A DNA stretch of 7,667 nt from CAVPRW01 sp046727435 [NCBI: bacterium] (GTDB taxonomy: Bacteria > Tectomicrobia > Entotheonellia > J063), in the NCBI GenBank assembly GCA_046727435.1, contig JBKPCR010000465.1:1-7667 (forward strand), read 5' to 3'. Under the pieces are notes generated by a model, which saw only the letters and a program-made list of their open reading frames with translations, had not been told where the DNA came from and did no database searches. Shown here in pieces: positions 1 through 7,296 of the stretch (positions within the stretch are counted from its first letter, which is position 1; each line of letters begins with the position of its first letter). Both the position numbers and the translations under genes were made by a program.

Positions 1-719
1 ACCAACAGGTAGAGCGGCGTGACGTACGTGAGCACCCACAGGAAGAACCGGGGGATCCGGACCTGTGCCCCCCGGTGAATTTCTTCCCAGGCGCGCCCCG
101 GCCGAAAGAGCCAGACGAACAGGATCGTCTCGACCAAGGCGAAGAGCGTGACCCCGAAAGTGCCGGCCCAGAAATCGATCTCATCCAGCGCGCCGCTCTG
201 AAGCCCCAGGATGGGCACGTGCGCCGCCAGGAAGATCACGGCCGACGTCACGAGCACGGCCTTCCGGTGGCTCCAGCTGAGGTCGTCCTGCAGGAAGGTG
301 ATGAGCGGCTGCATCAAGGCCAGCTGGGACAAGGTGCCCGCGATGAACAGTAAGCCAAACCACGCCGTCCCAAACGCCACATGCCATGGCAACTGTTGGA
401 GCACGACCGGCATGGTGGCGAATCCCAGGTTAAAGGCCCCCCCTTGGGCCACGTCCATGGTCCCCTGGGGTCCAAAGAACGCGTAAGCGATGGGGATCGC
501 GATCGTGCTGCCGAGGATGACCTCGCCCCACTCGTTCACCATGGTGGTGGACAGGCCGGTCACCACCACATCGTCCCTGCTTCGCAGGTAGCTGGCATAG
601 ACCTGGATCGTGCCGAAGCCGACGCTCAAGGTGAAAAAGATTTGGCCCGCGGCGGCGAGCCACACCTTGGCATCCGTCAACCGGGACAGATCGGGATCCC
701 AGAGAAATCCCATGCCGTT
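1..719 (-). pseudogene. LeuT-type symporter, C-terminal half, same frame after the TGA; runs off the left edge
   Basis: I translated this stretch by hand in the same frame as the preceding half and found no further stop down to position 3. It begins NGMGFLWDPDLSRL and gives the TM6 motif GQIFFTLSVGFG, then VNEWGEVILG (TM7), IAGTLSQLALMQP (TM8) and DEIDFWAGTFGVT. Compared with LeuT from memory, the binding residues F253, T254, S256, F259, N286 and S355 are kept, I359 becomes Leu, and E290 is kept, as in chloride-independent bacterial members. The position of LeuT T354 is Leu. About 457 codons of the gene are visible against about 515 in LeuT, so roughly the last 60-70 residues lie outside the window. 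It is called a pseudogene because of the TGA at 720-722. A restart ATG exists at 711-713, but no functional transporter is expected from it. Readthrough or a sequencing error would restore a full protein, since selection on the downstream half looks intact. Confidence 0.85.
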
Positions 720-1373
720 TCAGACGTGGTGCTCTGGGTGGCTGGGGTCCGGGGCCCCGAGGGTGAGCACGCGGACGGTGAGCAGCACGGAGAGCAGGAT
801 GAGCACCGGCATCCCCCAACTGGCGGCGCGTTCGATGCCTCTGCGGATGCCGCCCGAGAGAATCCAGGTGTTGAAGGCCATGGTCAGGACGAAGCAGAGA
901 TATGCAAGTCCGCTGACACCCCACCGGGAGTGACTGCCCTGGAAGCCCGCGAGGAACTCAGACATGCCCTCCCGCCAGGTCACGCCGACATACGTCCCGA
1001 ACAGGGCGTAGGAGGTATACGCCAGGGTCCAGGACTGCACGTAGACGTAATAGCACCCGACCGCCACGGGCAGGAGGATCCCCAAGGCGCCGAGATACTT
1101 GGCGACGGGGTGGCTCCAGAGGAGTTGAAAAATGCCCGGAGCGGTGCCATGGCCTCGCTCGCCCCCCATACGGCCCATCGCCCATTCGCACCACATCAAG
1201 GGTATGGCAAGGAAAATCAAGGCGCAGAAGTAGGGGATCATGAACGCCCCGCCGCCGTTCTGCGCGGCCTGTACGGGGAACCGCAGGTAGTTTCCTAAAC
1301 CCGTGGCATTGCCCGCCATGGCGAGGACCAACCCCAGTCTTGTCATCCACACTTCCCGGCTGTTATGTGCCAT
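720..1373 (-). CDS. LeuT-type sodium:amino-acid symporter, N-terminal half ending at an in-frame TGA
   Basis: Encodes 217 residues covering TM1 to TM5 of a neurotransmitter:sodium symporter, an inner-membrane protein that uses the Na+ gradient to import amino acids. The start ATG (1371-1373) has a GGGAGG ribosome site 5 nt upstream, and the N-terminus lines up directly with Aquifex LeuT as I remember it. TM1 contains the unwound sodium/substrate segment AGNATGLGNYLRFP (residues 20-33), followed by the conserved GGGAF and EWAMGR stretches. The tyrosine pair equivalent to LeuT Y107/Y108 is present in CYYVY. Translation stops at TGA 720-722, but the same frame continues immediately into the second half of the family, so this is one gene with one nonsense codon. 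Alone, the product would lack TM6 and TM8, which complete the transport site, and would not be functional. An upstream ATG at 1437-1439 is less likely because it adds a basic extension without homology. Confidence 0.85.
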   Translation of the reverse strand: MAHNSREVWMTRLGLVLAMAGNATGLGNYLRFPVQAAQNGGGAFMIPYFCALIFLAIPLMWCEWAMGRMGGERGHGTAPGIFQLLWSHPVAKYLGALGILLPVAVGCYYVYVQSWTLAYTSYALFGTYVGVTWREGMSEFLAGFQGSHSRWGVSGLAYLCFVLTMAFNTWILSGGIRRGIERAASWGMPVLILLSVLLTVRVLTLGAPDPSHPEHHV

Positions 1374-1736: not shown

Positions 1737-2879
1737 ATGGCGTCCGCCATACGAGATAAAGCGCTTGTGATCATACAGCTGAGCGGCGGCAACGACTGCC
1801 TCAACACCGTTGTCCCATACACGAACGGGCTCTATCACGATTTCCGTCCCACGGTCAGTATTGCGGCCGAACATGTCTTGCCCATCGATGATGCCTTCGG
1901 CTTCAATCCGAGCATGGGGCCCATCAAACGCCTGTGGGATGAGGGGAAGGTGGCCATTATCAACGGCATCGGCTATCCGCACCCCGATCGCTCCCATTTC
2001 CGGTCGATGGATATTTGGCACACCGCGGAGCCCGAGAAAATCGGCAAAGAGGGCTGGCTAGGCCGCGCCATACGAACCCTGGATCCCAAAGGCGACAACG
2101 TGCTCATGGGCATCAACTTCGGTCGAGGCCTGCCGAGAGCCCTTGGTTGCCGGGGTGTTCCGGTCGCTTCGGTGGGGAACCTCGAGACCTATGGCCTCTA
2201 CCCTGACCTTCAGGAGGAGCGGTCGCGACAGTTTGCGCTGCAGACCTTTACCAAGATGTACGGTGGGGGAGCAGGTCGGGATGCTGTTATGGGCTTCTTG
2301 GGTCAGACCGCCTCTGACGCGCTGAAGGGCGCCGACATTCTCAGGACAGCACCTGCGCGGTATGCCTCCACCGTGACATATGCCAACAATTCCGTGGCCC
2401 AAAGCCTCAAGAGCATGGCGCAGGTGATGTTCGCCGATCTTGGCACGCGCATTTACTACACCCAGTATGGCAGCTTTGATACCCACTCTGGAGAGCTGGC
2501 GACGCATGCGAAGCTGTGGCAGGAGGTTGCTGGCGCGGTCGGGACCTTCATGGACGATCTGCAGGCGCATGGCCGTGAAGACGACGCCTTGGTCTTCATT
2601 TTCTCCGAGTTTGGGCGCCGCATCCGCGACAACGGTTCTGGTACCGACCACGGCTCAGGCGGTGTGGCGTTTGTCATCGGCAAGGCGGTGCAGGGTGGGA
2701 TGTACGGTGAGTATCCTTCCCTAAAGGTTGAAGCGCAATTGGAGGGCGATCTGCACTTCAACAATGACTTCCGTTGTACCTATTCCACGCTCCTGGAGCA
2801 ATGGCTGGGCTTGGACCCTGCACCCATTGTGAATGGCCAGTTCGAGCAGTTCGCATGTCTCAAGACGTCAGCATCATAG
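1737..2879 (+). CDS. DUF1501 family protein (alkaline-phosphatase-like fold), without signal peptide
   Basis: A 380-residue protein of the DUF1501 family, which is grouped with the alkaline phosphatase/sulfatase superfamily; the substrate is unknown. The motifs appear in family order: LVIIQLSGGNDCLNTVVPY (residues 10-28), the RP at 37-38, GYPHPDRSHFRSMDIW (79-94), GSFDTHSG (245-252), and EFGRRIRDNGSGTDHG (291-306). D20, D248, H250, D304 and H305 are plausible metal ligands by analogy with the fold. Most family members begin with a twin-arginine signal of 30 or more residues. This one starts 9 residues before the first beta strand, with no RR motif and no hydrophobic leader, so it is probably cytoplasmic. 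The common GGNDG turn reads GGNDC here. It ends 33 bp before the DUF1800 gene, its usual genomic partner, and is the first gene of the plus-strand run. Family assignment is secure; the enzymatic role is inference. Confidence 0.93.
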   Translation: MASAIRDKALVIIQLSGGNDCLNTVVPYTNGLYHDFRPTVSIAAEHVLPIDDAFGFNPSMGPIKRLWDEGKVAIINGIGYPHPDRSHFRSMDIWHTAEPEKIGKEGWLGRAIRTLDPKGDNVLMGINFGRGLPRALGCRGVPVASVGNLETYGLYPDLQEERSRQFALQTFTKMYGGGAGRDAVMGFLGQTASDALKGADILRTAPARYASTVTYANNSVAQSLKSMAQVMFADLGTRIYYTQYGSFDTHSGELATHAKLWQEVAGAVGTFMDDLQAHGREDDALVFIFSEFGRRIRDNGSGTDHGSGGVAFVIGKAVQGGMYGEYPSLKVEAQLEGDLHFNNDFRCTYSTLLEQWLGLDPAPIVNGQFEQFACLKTSAS

Positions 2880-2912
2880 ACAGCGCATGCTTGTGTAGAA
2901 GGAGGCAGGAGT

Positions 2913-4328
2913 ATGCATCAGCAAGACATGACGCTCATGGCGCATTTGCTGCGCCGCGCTGGGTTTGGTGCGACCCGTGATGACCTCGAAGCGTATGTCG
3001 CCAAGGGCTATGAGGCAGTGGTCGAGGAATTGCTACACCCCAGCGACCCACAGGCCATGCCGGAGGACATCATCCGTCGCTACCACGTAGATCAGTCTGA
3101 GCTCCGCCAACTTGACGCCGCCGGAGCGAATTGGCTCTATCGCATGATCACGACCAGGTGCCCGTTGGAGGAGAAGATCGCCCTCTTCTGGCATGGCCTC
3201 TTTGCGACGGGCTACGCCAAGCTCAATCAGGCCAGGGCACTGCTCAACCAAATCGATATGTTCCGGCGATACGGCCTCGGGCGGTTCGATACGCTGCTCG
3301 TCGAGCTCTCCAAAGACCCGGCGATGATTATTTGGCTCGATAATAACACCAATCATAAGGGCTCCATTAACGAAAACTACGGTCGTGAATTGTTGGAGTT
3401 GTTCTCGATGGGCATCGGGAACTATACCGAGCAGGATATCAAGGAGTGCGCCCGTGCCTTCACCGGATGGACGCTGGGGAACGCCGAGTACATGGCCGTG
3501 CGCGCCAGCAAGGATTCCATCTGGCCCTACGGGCGTATCGCGTGGCATTTTGAGTACCGCGATGGGGACCACGACGACGGTGAAAAGACCTTCCTGGGCG
3601 AGACGGACCGGTTCAATGGCGAGGAGATCATCGACATCATCGCGCGCCAGGAGGCCACGGCACGCTTCGTCAGCACACGGCTGTTTCAGTTCTTCGGCGC
3701 AGACGAGATCGACGCCGCGGGTGAACAGACGATTCAGGAGATGATGCAGTCCTACTTCGACTCCGGCTACGAGATTCGTGCAGTATTGCGGACGTTGTTC
3801 CACTCCGACTATTTCACGTCCGAGCAGGCGCGCTACGCTCGTGTCAAGGGGCCCGTCGAGCTTGTCGTTGGCGCCATCCGCCTGGCAGGAAGCTACCGGA
3901 CGCCCACGCTCGGGGCACATCAGCTGGCGTACCAAACCTTCTACATGGGTCAGGGCTTGCTTCAACCGCCCTCGGTCGAGGGGTGGCACGAGGGCCTGGA
4001 GTGGGTGGACAGCGGCTCACTGCTCGAGCGGATTAACTTCATTGCGAAGGAACTCAGCAATGTGCAGAACTCAGGTGTGCGGGCCATCATCGCTCGGCTG
4101 GCCACTGAGAATGGTGGCACGCTGATGCCCGAGCAGTTGGTTGACCGATGCTTAGATCTGGTCGGTCCCCTCTCAGTGCACGACGACACCCGAGCTGCCC
4201 TGGTCGAATTTGCCGCTAAGGATGGGGCGCTACAGCTCGAGGGACACCAACCAGGCGATCCCTCCGAACAGCGAGTCGGCAACATGCTGCGGATGATCGC
4301 CTCGACCAGGGAATTCCAACTGGCCTAA
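2913..4328 (+). CDS. DUF1800 family protein
   Basis: A 471-residue protein of the DUF1800 family, function unknown, a frequent neighbour of DUF1501. The start ATG has AAGGAGG at 2899-2905, 7 nt upstream. Family hallmarks are HLLRRAGFG near the N-terminus (residues 11-19), NENYGRELLELFSMG (153-167) followed by YTEQDIKECARAFTGW, the acidic HDDGEKTFLG stretch (about 220-229), and VEGWHEGLEW in the C-terminal third. The length is in the normal range. As with the upstream partner, there is no signal peptide: the N-terminus is MHQQDMTLMAHLL and leads straight into the first helix of the domain. In many genomes DUF1800 precedes DUF1501; here the order is reversed. It is probably cotranscribed with its upstream neighbour. 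It is followed by a 91-bp gap carrying a large inverted repeat. A catalytic role cannot be assigned from sequence alone. Confidence 0.93.
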   Translation: MHQQDMTLMAHLLRRAGFGATRDDLEAYVAKGYEAVVEELLHPSDPQAMPEDIIRRYHVDQSELRQLDAAGANWLYRMITTRCPLEEKIALFWHGLFATGYAKLNQARALLNQIDMFRRYGLGRFDTLLVELSKDPAMIIWLDNNTNHKGSINENYGRELLELFSMGIGNYTEQDIKECARAFTGWTLGNAEYMAVRASKDSIWPYGRIAWHFEYRDGDHDDGEKTFLGETDRFNGEEIIDIIARQEATARFVSTRLFQFFGADEIDAAGEQTIQEMMQSYFDSGYEIRAVLRTLFHSDYFTSEQARYARVKGPVELVVGAIRLAGSYRTPTLGAHQLAYQTFYMGQGLLQPPSVEGWHEGLEWVDSGSLLERINFIAKELSNVQNSGVRAIIARLATENGGTLMPEQLVDRCLDLVGPLSVHDDTRAALVEFAAKDGALQLEGHQPGDPSEQRVGNMLRMIASTREFQLA

Positions 4329-4340
4329 CAATAGTAATGA

Positions 4341-4403
4341 AGTGATGAGTGGTTAGTGGGCGGTGGTTAGAGAAAATCTGGCTTGTACTAACCACTCATC
4401 ACT
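4341..4403. repeat. 17-bp perfect inverted repeat made of TGGTTAG-like heptamers
   Basis: The arm AGTGATGAGTGGTTAGT at 4341-4357 is the exact reverse complement of 4387-4403, with a 29-nt loop. The left side reads as heptamers in phase: TGATGAG (4343), TGGTTAG (4350), TGGGCGG (4357) and TGGTTAG (4364). On the minus strand the right side reads TGGTTAG, TGATGAG, TGGTTAG (4408-4388). The loop heptamer at 4364-4370 can also pair with CTAACCA at either 4388-4394 or 4402-4408, so alternative hairpins exist. There is no T-tract, so it is not a classical intrinsic terminator. It resembles the short heptameric repeat families dispersed between genes in some bacteria. No target-site duplication was seen. 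It ends 16 bp before the NHL start and may affect mRNA stability or partly separate the downstream genes. Confidence 0.8.
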
Positions 4404-4407
4404 AACC

Positions 4408-4415
4408 AGGGGGGG
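4408..4415 (+). promoter_or_regulatory. G-run ribosome-binding site AGGGGGGG before the GTG start of the NHL gene
   Basis: AGGGGGGG lies 4 nt before GTG 4420-4422. It is an atypical, slippery Shine-Dalgarno sequence, placed just after the inverted repeat, so hairpin formation could influence initiation. The earlier in-frame GTG at 4363 lies within the hairpin loop, and the next ATG (4453) lacks a good site. Confidence 0.45.
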
Positions 4416-4419
4416 AACC

Positions 4420-5451
4420 GTGAGTGCTCAAGTCGCTACGCCAAGCATCACGATGCAGTATGTCAAGACCATTGGTATTGTCAACAATGGGTTCAACGGG
4501 CGTGGCTTTGCTAACCCCTACGATCTGGTCGTAAGCCAGGATGGGCGCATCTTCGTGCTGAACCGCTGCGACCCGACGCGTGCCGCCGCCATCCGTGTGG
4601 GCATCTGCACGCTGGAAGAGGAGTACCTAGGAGAGTTCGGTAACGGCTTTGGCGCCGGTGACGGGCAGTTCGCCTGGCCCGTGGCCATGGCCTTTGACAG
4701 CCAGGAGCGATTGTACATCACTGACGAGCATAATCACCGCATTTCGATATTCGATACCTCAGGAACATTCCTGGGCAAATGGGGCACATTAGGTGGTGAT
4801 GCCGGCGAGCTCAACGGTCCCGCTGGTATCGCCATCGATGCTGAAGACCATGTGTACGTCGTGGACCAACACAACCATCGCGTTCAGAAGTTCACGACCG
4901 ATGGCACATACATCCTCCAGTGGGGTGAGGCCGGCACGCACGACGGCCAGTTCAATCTCCCCTGGGGCGTGGCTGTGGATGCCCAGGGCGCGGTGTATGT
5001 AGCTGACTGGCGCAACGACCGCGTCCAGAAATTCACCCCCGATGGGCAGTTTGTGGCCAGGTTTGGCGAGTCAGGCCAGGGCGAGGGCCAGTTCAATCGG
5101 CCGTCGAGCGTCGCGGTAGACTCAGAGGGGTACATGTATGTGGCGGACTGGGGGAATGAGCGCGTGCAGGTCCTGGGACCGGACGGGACCTTCCAGTTGC
5201 TGCTGCGCGGGCAGGCCACCTTGTCGAAATGGGCTGAGGAGTTCTTCGCCTCCAACCCGGATGAGTGGCAGACACGAGCCGTCTCGAACCTCATCCCAAA
5301 CTTGCCTCCTCACCTCAACACGCCATATCATATCTCTTCCCAGACCGAGCCGTATTTCTGGGGGCCCGTGTCGGTGAAGCTCGATCGGGAGAATCGACTC
5401 TACGTCCCTGAAACCAATCGTCACCGCGTACAGATTTACCAGAAATCCTAA
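4420..5451 (+). CDS. NHL-repeat six-bladed beta-propeller protein
   Basis: About 343 residues from GTG 4420. NHL repeats form beta-propellers that bind proteins, RNA or ligands; some family members are enzymes such as lyases and lactonases. Repeats are recognisable by a G-x-F/L-N-x-P entry, a V-A-V-D segment, and V-Y-V-A-D-x-x-N-x-R-V-Q-x-F. They begin near residues 30, 82, 129, 176 and 223, so the four central blades have a 47-residue period, and a last blade ends at the C-terminus (VSVKLDRENRLYVPETNRHRVQIY). That gives six blades, with an N-terminal strand (QYVKTIG) likely closing the ring. The first blade carries a Cys-containing insertion (NRCDPTRAAAIRVGICTLEE). About 50 non-repeat residues (about 265-314) are inserted between blades five and six. 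No signal peptide or transmembrane helix is seen. The start is less certain than for the neighbours: GTG 4363 and ATG 4453 are alternatives. The role is unknown; scaffold or sugar/lactone-type enzyme are both possible. Confidence 0.88.
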   Translation: MSAQVATPSITMQYVKTIGIVNNGFNGRGFANPYDLVVSQDGRIFVLNRCDPTRAAAIRVGICTLEEEYLGEFGNGFGAGDGQFAWPVAMAFDSQERLYITDEHNHRISIFDTSGTFLGKWGTLGGDAGELNGPAGIAIDAEDHVYVVDQHNHRVQKFTTDGTYILQWGEAGTHDGQFNLPWGVAVDAQGAVYVADWRNDRVQKFTPDGQFVARFGESGQGEGQFNRPSSVAVDSEGYMYVADWGNERVQVLGPDGTFQLLLRGQATLSKWAEEFFASNPDEWQTRAVSNLIPNLPPHLNTPYHISSQTEPYFWGPVSVKLDRENRLYVPETNRHRVQIYQKS

Positions 5452-5480
5452 AGGGCTTTTCCTCTGAGGCATGATTGTGG

Positions 5481-5487
5481 AAGGAGA
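5481..5487 (+). promoter_or_regulatory. Ribosome-binding site AAGGAGA that fixes the flavoprotein start
   Basis: AAGGAGA precedes ATG 5497-5499 by 9 nt. The in-frame GTG at 5488 touches this site and would be too close to use, so ATG 5497 is preferred. Confidence 0.6.
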
Positions 5488-5496
5488 GTGTGCCAT

Positions 5497-7296
5497 ATGA
5501 CGACAGGTAGAGACGACAACTCGACCGACATCGTCGGTCTGGGGGCATTAGGCGCGGGGATCGGTCCCATGCCGACGAGCTGGGACCTGGAAGCGGACGT
5601 AGTGATTATTGGTGCTGGCGCCACTGGACTGCCCGCGGCCATTCGGGCCGCGGATGCGGGGGCATCAGTGATCGTGGTCGAAGCCAACTATGATGTCGGC
5701 GGCCATGCGATCTTGAGCGGCGGCAACGTGCCGCTGGGCGGCGGCACGAGTGCGCAGAAAAAATATGGCATCGAGGATTCGCCGGACCTTGTCTTTCGCG
5801 ATCTGACCGATTGGACCATCGTCCAACCTAACGGCTGGCCGGACTACCGCTACAATGACCGAGCCATCATGCGGGCCTTCGCCGATCATTGTGCCGGAGC
5901 CTATGAATTTCTCGTGGCTAATGGCGTCAAGTTTCGTAACCTCCCACCGGACAATATCGGCGCCCACAGCACGGGCAACTCGGCGCCACGTGAGAATCAT
6001 GCCTTCTGGACCGACGGCGCCGGGCCCGGGAGTCCCAGCGGCCGCGGCGGCGCCGGTCTGGTGCGGCCCCTGGAGGCCAGCGCCCGGGCCAAGGGGGTCA
6101 AGTTTCTCCTACACTATAAGATGACGCGCCTCGTCCGGACCGCCTCCGCCGAGGGCCACCCCGGCCGCGTGGTTGGCCTGACCGCCACCTATGCGCCACG
6201 TATCCTGCCCGGCGCCGCCACGCCGCTCCAGAGCTACCGCGCCAACGGCAACCTCGACATGACCCAGCCGCGTGTGTCCATCCGCGCCACCAAAGCCGTC
6301 ATCCTCGCCACCGGGGGCAGCACCAGCAATGTCCACTTCCGGCGCATGTTCGATCCGCGCTTGACGGAGGTCTACCAGGTGGCCGGCGAACCGTATTCCT
6401 TCCAGGACGGCAGCGGCGAGTTGGCCGCCATGGCCATCGGCGCCTCGCTCTGGGGGCTGGGCATTCAGATTCTGGAGAATGGCGATAGCATCCGCACACA
6501 GCGACCCATTGGCGCGCGCTACAGTTATTTCGCCTGGGATGTCAACTGCCCCATCTTCCCCCTGGTGCGTGCGACTGGCCTTGAGGTCGAGAACTGGCAG
6601 AACCTTATCCTAGTCAACCAGCTGGGCCAGCGCTTTTACGACGAGACCAAAGGCGATTACCCCAACGGGAACATGGCCAACGAATTCACCCCATATACTC
6701 CAAATGATTACCGCAATAACGCCCGCATCGAGTACGACCCCACGCAATATAATTTCTTTAATGCCGCCGTGGCGATGAATGCGGCCTCGGCGCCACCCGA
6801 TTATGCCGCGGGCCCGATCTGGGCCATCTTTGATGCCGACGCGGCGGCCCGGGAGCAGTGGCAGGTCGCCCCGCCGTACGTCGATCCGGATGGCTATTGC
6901 TTTAGCGCAAACACGTTAGCAGATCTCGCTGCTGCCATCACCAATCCCTATCAGGCTAAGCCGATGGACGGCGCCATCTTGCAGGCCACGGTGGACCGCT
7001 ACAACGCATTTGTGGACGCCGGGACCGATGCGGATTTCGGCAAGCCGACGCCACAGTATAAGATCCAGACGCCGCCGTTCTATGCCGCCTGGGCCACGCC
7101 GCTGGTGCATGACACGCGCGCCGGCCTCCGCATCAACGAGAAGTGCCAGGTGATGGACCTGCAGGGTCAGGTAATCCCTGGCCTCTACTGCGGTGGCGAA
7201 TCGGCTGGCGGATTCAACCAACATGGGCTGGGCCGCTGCACGGCCCAGGGCTACATCGCCGGCACATACGCCGCTGCGGAAAATCCCCACGCTTGA
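5497..7296 (+). CDS. FAD-dependent oxidoreductase (FAD_binding_2, fumarate reductase/KstD-like flavoprotein)
   Basis: A 599-residue flavoprotein. The Rossmann dinucleotide site DVVIIGAGATGLPAAIRAAD (residues 34-53) has GxGxxG at 39-44 and the ribose-binding acid E62 in VIVVEAN. The following GGHAILSGGNVPLGGGTSAQ stretch is the flavin-contacting loop of the fumarate reductase/succinate dehydrogenase/3-ketosteroid dehydrogenase family. The second FAD motif VILATGGSTSN is at 268-278, and the C-terminal FAD clasp IPGLYCGGESAGGFNQHGLG is at 560-579. In fumarate reductases the clasp carries an NR pair whose Arg binds dicarboxylate; here it reads FNQHG, so fumarate is an unlikely substrate. The likely role is FAD-linked dehydrogenation or double-bond reduction of an unidentified organic compound. 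About 30 extra residues precede the Rossmann fold, with no clear Tat or Sec signal, so it is probably cytoplasmic. It lies 45 bp after the NHL gene and 26 bp before the amidohydrolase, which suggests one operon. Confidence 0.92.
   Translation: MTTGRDDNSTDIVGLGALGAGIGPMPTSWDLEADVVIIGAGATGLPAAIRAADAGASVIVVEANYDVGGHAILSGGNVPLGGGTSAQKKYGIEDSPDLVFRDLTDWTIVQPNGWPDYRYNDRAIMRAFADHCAGAYEFLVANGVKFRNLPPDNIGAHSTGNSAPRENHAFWTDGAGPGSPSGRGGAGLVRPLEASARAKGVKFLLHYKMTRLVRTASAEGHPGRVVGLTATYAPRILPGAATPLQSYRANGNLDMTQPRVSIRATKAVILATGGSTSNVHFRRMFDPRLTEVYQVAGEPYSFQDGSGELAAMAIGASLWGLGIQILENGDSIRTQRPIGARYSYFAWDVNCPIFPLVRATGLEVENWQNLILVNQLGQRFYDETKGDYPNGNMANEFTPYTPNDYRNNARIEYDPTQYNFFNAAVAMNAASAPPDYAAGPIWAIFDADAAAREQWQVAPPYVDPDGYCFSANTLADLAAAITNPYQAKPMDGAILQATVDRYNAFVDAGTDADFGKPTPQYKIQTPPFYAAWATPLVHDTRAGLRINEKCQVMDLQGQVIPGLYCGGESAGGFNQHGLGRCTAQGYIAGTYAAAENPHA

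Follow-up and report, generated by a model that had tools for sequence, protein, structure and literature searches.

A lone in-frame TGA in a LeuT-like transporter gene, best read as a recent nonsense change

Does the single in-frame TGA in a LeuT-like transporter gene mark a gene that has just been broken, a faulty base in the record, or a stop that the cell reads through? The window, as we call the whole stretch of DNA analysed here (7,667 nucleotides), reads TCA at plus-strand positions 720–722, and the minus-strand codon 722–720 is therefore TGA. The original prediction had placed a lone in-frame TGA here and had claimed that no other stop follows down to position 3. Both claims are borne out: the open reading frames 720–1439 and 3–713 (minus strand) flank the codon in a common frame, positions 3–719 hold no further stop in the transporter frame, and the 7,164 coding bases of the whole window contain one stop, the TGA itself, and no frameshift. 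The gene had also been called otherwise intact, and this stands as far as the window edge, at about LeuT residue 460, with no second stop or frameshift on the way; beyond that point the C-terminus is cut off. Translation most likely begins at the ATG at 1373–1371, separated by four bases from GGGAGG at 1383–1378, and the 217 residues between this ATG and the TGA comprise about five transmembrane helices (Table 1).

Table 1. Coordinates of the features of the transporter gene in the window.
Feature	Position	Strand	Remarks
In-frame TGA codon	720–722	minus	Residue 240 if the frame is read from 1439; pairs with LeuT A224
LeuT-like transporter, upstream half	723–1373	minus	217 codons from ATG, to the loop before TM6; Pfam SNF 1.2e-20
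LeuT-like transporter, downstream half	3–719	minus	239 codons; frame open as far as the window edge, which cuts the C-terminus; Pfam SNF 1.4e-28
GGGAGG, Shine-Dalgarno-like	1378–1383	minus	Ahead of the transporter start; read by eye
In-frame ATG	711–713	minus	Separated from the TGA by two codons; possible restart, without a Shine-Dalgarno-like sequence; by eye

The homology to LeuT that had been claimed on either side of the stop is present. Each half matches the Pfam SNF family (PF00209), and the read-through frame, with the TGA taken as W, aligns with LeuT residues 27–478 (E about 1e-135). The SNF domain spans both five-helix repeats and, together with the LeuT alignment, places the protein in the NSS/SLC6 family; its predicted function is that of a LeuT-type sodium-coupled amino-acid transporter. 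The frame is not a product of chance, because 73 loci encoding relatives were recovered from one scan of the species-genome collection. By hand count on the alignment, the TGA pairs with LeuT A224, before TM6, in agreement with the predicted position of about residue 224. It sits two residues after a five-residue insertion relative to LeuT, which fits the description of this loop as poorly conserved in length and residue. We take the loop to be the one that joins the two five-helix repeats of the LeuT fold.

The statement that the downstream half keeps all key motifs stands in part. All invariant columns of that half are retained, but the Na2-site stretch reads AGTLSQ instead of the usual AG[IV]TSS, which is present in eight of the nine other relatives shown, the ninth having AALTSS. 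The nearest full-length relative found (L001, 73–75% identical) has AGTLSQ too, so this departure is not decay. The TM1, TM6 and TM7 stretches, where substrate and ion ligands would lie, are largely kept, and the Na2 difference is common to the window and L001. Two shared features set this pair apart. In TM3, both proteins have YVQSWTL, where the nine other relatives shown carry E, as LeuT does; in TM8, both have AGTLSQ, where the nine others have Thr-Ser-Ser. The two proteins form a clade of their own, in which the sodium site is possibly altered.

L001 is the sister of the window protein with a support of 1.0 in a tree of 38 sequences, and with supports of 0.895 and 0.997 in trees of the half genes. 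No full-length match closer than L001 appeared in searches of 199, 296 and 290 genomes, the sets being relatives of three genomes that themselves encode close transporters. One piece in genome G165 is 75–78% identical over residues of about 25–144, on a contig that ends before the TGA site. Plasmids gave 79 records, each under 60% identity, and no match at the DNA level, and the IMG/VR patterns gave no match.

At the site itself, 95 distinct relatives of at least 38% identity (nine alignments were dropped as duplicates) contain neither a stop nor a Cys. The column holds L in 24, V in 11, S in 11, I in 9, a gap in 8, A in 7, W in 6, M in 4, G in 4, and N, T and E in 2 each, with H, P, D, F and Y once each, for a total of 16 different residues. 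The codon is TGG in L001 and L002, and TTA in L003; TTA likewise differs from TGA by a single base, but because L001 is the sister, the parent codon was more likely TGG. Stops elsewhere in the gene body are sporadic. We re-aligned the full query to 142 loci, ten of which (L099–L108) had been taken for the DUF1800 gene, after adding twelve stop-flagged matches that had no locus; the weak matches of the 290-genome search were covered in part. Sixteen of the 17 stops found lie at residues 12–22, before the start codon, and the stop-flagged matches in the three genome-set searches all start no later than query residue 22. The final count over residues 23–479, in 140 alignments to 132 loci, leaves one gene-body stop, at residue 118 of L135 (G692:C79:5900-7450), a distant LeuT-like relative of 27% identity with a single in-frame stop. 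This is an independent case at another place and gives no hint of recoding at a common site; it leaves the odds among the explanations unchanged. Judged by these alignments, the stop in the window would be a private, young and sporadic change. A different irregularity was seen at G536:C66:18789-20555, where overlapping matches (query 26–346 and 209–479) lie in one open frame of 671 residues, possibly a transporter gene with an internal duplication.

How long the stop has been in place can be approached from the conservation of the two halves. Columns invariant among 37 relatives (at least 50% identity, nearly the whole gene covered, near-duplicates removed) are kept by the window protein at 40 of 41 positions upstream and at 42 of 42 downstream. 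The window protein and L001 share an identity of 0.742 before the stop and 0.756 after it, and dN between them is 0.195 and 0.186, respectively. With L003, L002, L005, L004 and L026 as outgroups, the changes unique to the window versus those unique to L001 number 22/14, 20/12, 14/21, 18/11 and 21/10 upstream, and 20/15, 21/13, 15/16, 17/14 and 15/14 downstream; the downstream counts are no more skewed than the upstream ones. The tip lengths in the half-gene trees are 0.277 for the window and 0.118 for L001 upstream, and 0.184 and 0.169 downstream. Nothing in these comparisons suggests that the downstream half has been relaxed for longer. Synonymous sites are saturated against L001 in both halves (pS 0.84 and 0.80), and we draw nothing from the dN/dS ratios against more distant relatives, which are 0.32 upstream and 0.27 downstream for L002, show the opposite trend for L005 (0.10 and 0.19), and for L003 amount to 0.11 downstream with the upstream half saturated.

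A simulation of neutral drift in the downstream half gave the probability of acquiring no new stop while keeping all 42 columns as 0.57, 0.32, 0.10, 0.03 and 0.007 at 0.005, 0.01, 0.02, 0.03 and 0.05 substitutions per site. If the gene has been dead since the change, the change would therefore be younger than about 0.03 substitutions per site. An old decaying pseudogene is disfavoured by the lack of further stops and frameshifts, the complete set of downstream invariant columns, and the absence of a downstream rate excess.

The data fit the three options listed in the original prediction, and we rank them in the order of recent nonsense mutation, sequence error and readthrough. We see a little better than an even chance that a single, very recent nonsense substitution has struck a normal LeuT-type transporter gene. 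An ancestor with TGG, as in L001, would have acquired TGA by one transition; translation from the ATG at 1373 would then stop after 217 residues and about five transmembrane helices, and the allele is predicted to have lost all or nearly all of its function. The downstream half, which looks selected, would have been under selection until very recently. We infer that the base is real, that Trp is ancestral, and that the allele is a loss-of-function one, either young or polymorphic. A Trp ancestor is made less certain by the 16 residues seen at the site, of which Trp is only one, and by the TTA of L003; more broadly, a base error would look identical. Such an error in base calling, through damage or in assembly, with the gene uninterrupted in the organism, is the main rival, if a less likely one. 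It would account for a TGA that is one transition from the codon of the nearest relative and for the full conservation of the downstream half, and the record is perhaps a short contig from a metagenome. One transition, lying 720 bases from the record end, can be either an allele or an error. However, the coding bases of the window are free of other stops and frameshifts, showing that the record is not error-rich, and just 131 of the 4,113 single-base changes in the transporter frame would give a stop. Substitution errors are also rare in an assembled consensus, which counts against an error. We favour a real young allele over an error because the 7,164 coding bases contain no other lesion.

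The remaining explanations accept the stop and give it a use or a meaning, and we consider it improbable that the stop is real and used, be it through low, tunable readthrough or through a restart that makes a two-chain LeuT fold split between the inverted five-helix repeats. On the readthrough side, the gene would work at a low level through a near-cognate Trp-tRNA that reads UGA occasionally, which is ordinary biology; since the loop before TM6 tolerates many residues, the product would be functional, and the stop would act as a short-term brake on expression. This account is unlikely as a whole. Low-level readthrough could occur, and the Trp that a leaky UGA would bring in is the residue that some relatives carry, L001 among them. 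Belinky et al. (PMC7918605) name Trp as the amino acid put in at leaky UGA codons of E. coli and Salmonella; they suggest that readthrough is frequent while granting that a fraction of their cases may be true pseudogenes or polymorphisms. A UGA-reading tRNA-Trp with a 4-bp stem is described across diverse bacteria (PMC13092985). Sixteen residues occurring at the site would also suit an inserted Trp. Yet the fold z-scores around the site (−0.26, −1.48 and −0.51) indicate no notable structure, the stop is absent at the site from all 95 relatives and so is not conserved across diverged ones, and simple youth gives the same conservation.

It is very improbable that TM1–5 and TM6 onward are made as separate chains by termination and a restart at the ATG at 713–711. 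The stop does fall in the loop that links the two repeats of five helices, with an in-frame ATG two codons on, but this ATG lacks the Shine-Dalgarno-like sequence that five of the six listed gene starts have by eye (the exception is the NHL gene at 4363, whose real start may be elsewhere). The uninterrupted gene of L001 has a Met codon at this place too, which means that the ATG may be incidental; at the TGA site, none of the 95 relatives carries a stop. Among the papers listed, no account of a LeuT fold split in nature was evident, although one may still exist. We give hardly any credence to selenocysteine or to a genome-wide reassignment of TGA to Trp, and nothing in the sequence supports recoding at this codon. 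The TGA aligns with the Trp of the nearest relative, but TGA is a terminator in this window because the FAD-binding-domain gene ends in one (7294–7296); the next gene starts 26 bases further on, from a ribosome site of its own. Moreover, the five other genes have 34 TGG codons and no internal TGA, which leaves that of the transporter as the only internal TGA in the six genes read. Against selenocysteine, Cys and TGA are both absent at the site in the 95 relatives, no notable fold follows the TGA, where a bacterial SECIS would lie, and Rfam has no match in the window.

Other features of the window were catalogued alongside the transporter. A candidate hairpin with a T-run at 662–643 (minus strand), shortly after the TGA, was rejected as a terminator; one such element was found, and shuffled sequences average 1.5. 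On the plus strand lie DUF1501, DUF1800, NHL-repeat and FAD-binding-domain genes (Pfam), in this order, followed by the start of a fifth gene, presumably amidohydrolase-like by its HHHFWDF motif, for which Pfam gave no match at E 0.001. None of the five has an internal stop; the first four end in TAG, TAA, TAA and TGA, and the fifth runs off the window. The first four genes (1737–7296) are codirectional; for three of them the start as listed has a clear ribosome site, and the four likely form an operon. Between the DUF1800 and NHL genes, positions 4341–4403 hold a perfect 17-base inverted repeat with 29 bases between the arms, which folds far better than its shuffles (z −6.85). It may be a hairpin of the terminator type, or else a mobile palindrome of small size; in the viral contigs, a 21-base piece of the repeat found no exact match. 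The DUF1800 protein has matches in 7 of 34 genomes, the best-scoring being 43% identical (46% in a single short piece), none in the 199 genomes around G001 (a search made without a positive control), and relatives in 54 plasmid records that are all under 60%.

If either a young nonsense allele or an error lies behind the TGA, the case is an ordinary one. It is then useful only as a caution that a conserved downstream half does not imply readthrough, since a young stop would leave that half looking no different. If instead the stop is tolerated, the locus would show either leaky decoding of UGA in nature or a LeuT fold that is split along its internal symmetry, and a fold divided in that way would bear on the origin of such folds from half-size ancestors.

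Compared with LeuT (PDB 2A65), the window transporter is identical in the TM6 stretch GQIFFTLS and differs in the in-frame TGA at the A224 position, in five extra residues in the same loop, in YVQSW for YIESW in TM3, and in AGTLSQ for AGLTSS in the Na2 stretch, the last two shared with L001. The closest parallel for the stop is the survey of Belinky et al. (2021; PMC7918605), in whose account in-frame stops are widespread in bacterial genes and mostly no longer-lived than population polymorphisms, the affected genes having dN/dS below 1 though fairly high. A within-host study of Bacteroides fragilis cited in PMC11379459 counted 28 premature stops out of 325 new nonsynonymous mutations. The main set described in PMC7918605 consists of stops that orthologs from at least two species have in the same position, whereas the stop in the window is known from one sequence, where an error is possible. 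As described there, the shared traits are an in-frame stop in a gene otherwise under purifying selection and persistence on the scale of population polymorphism, and the TGA of the window is one more instance of these known short-lived in-frame stops.
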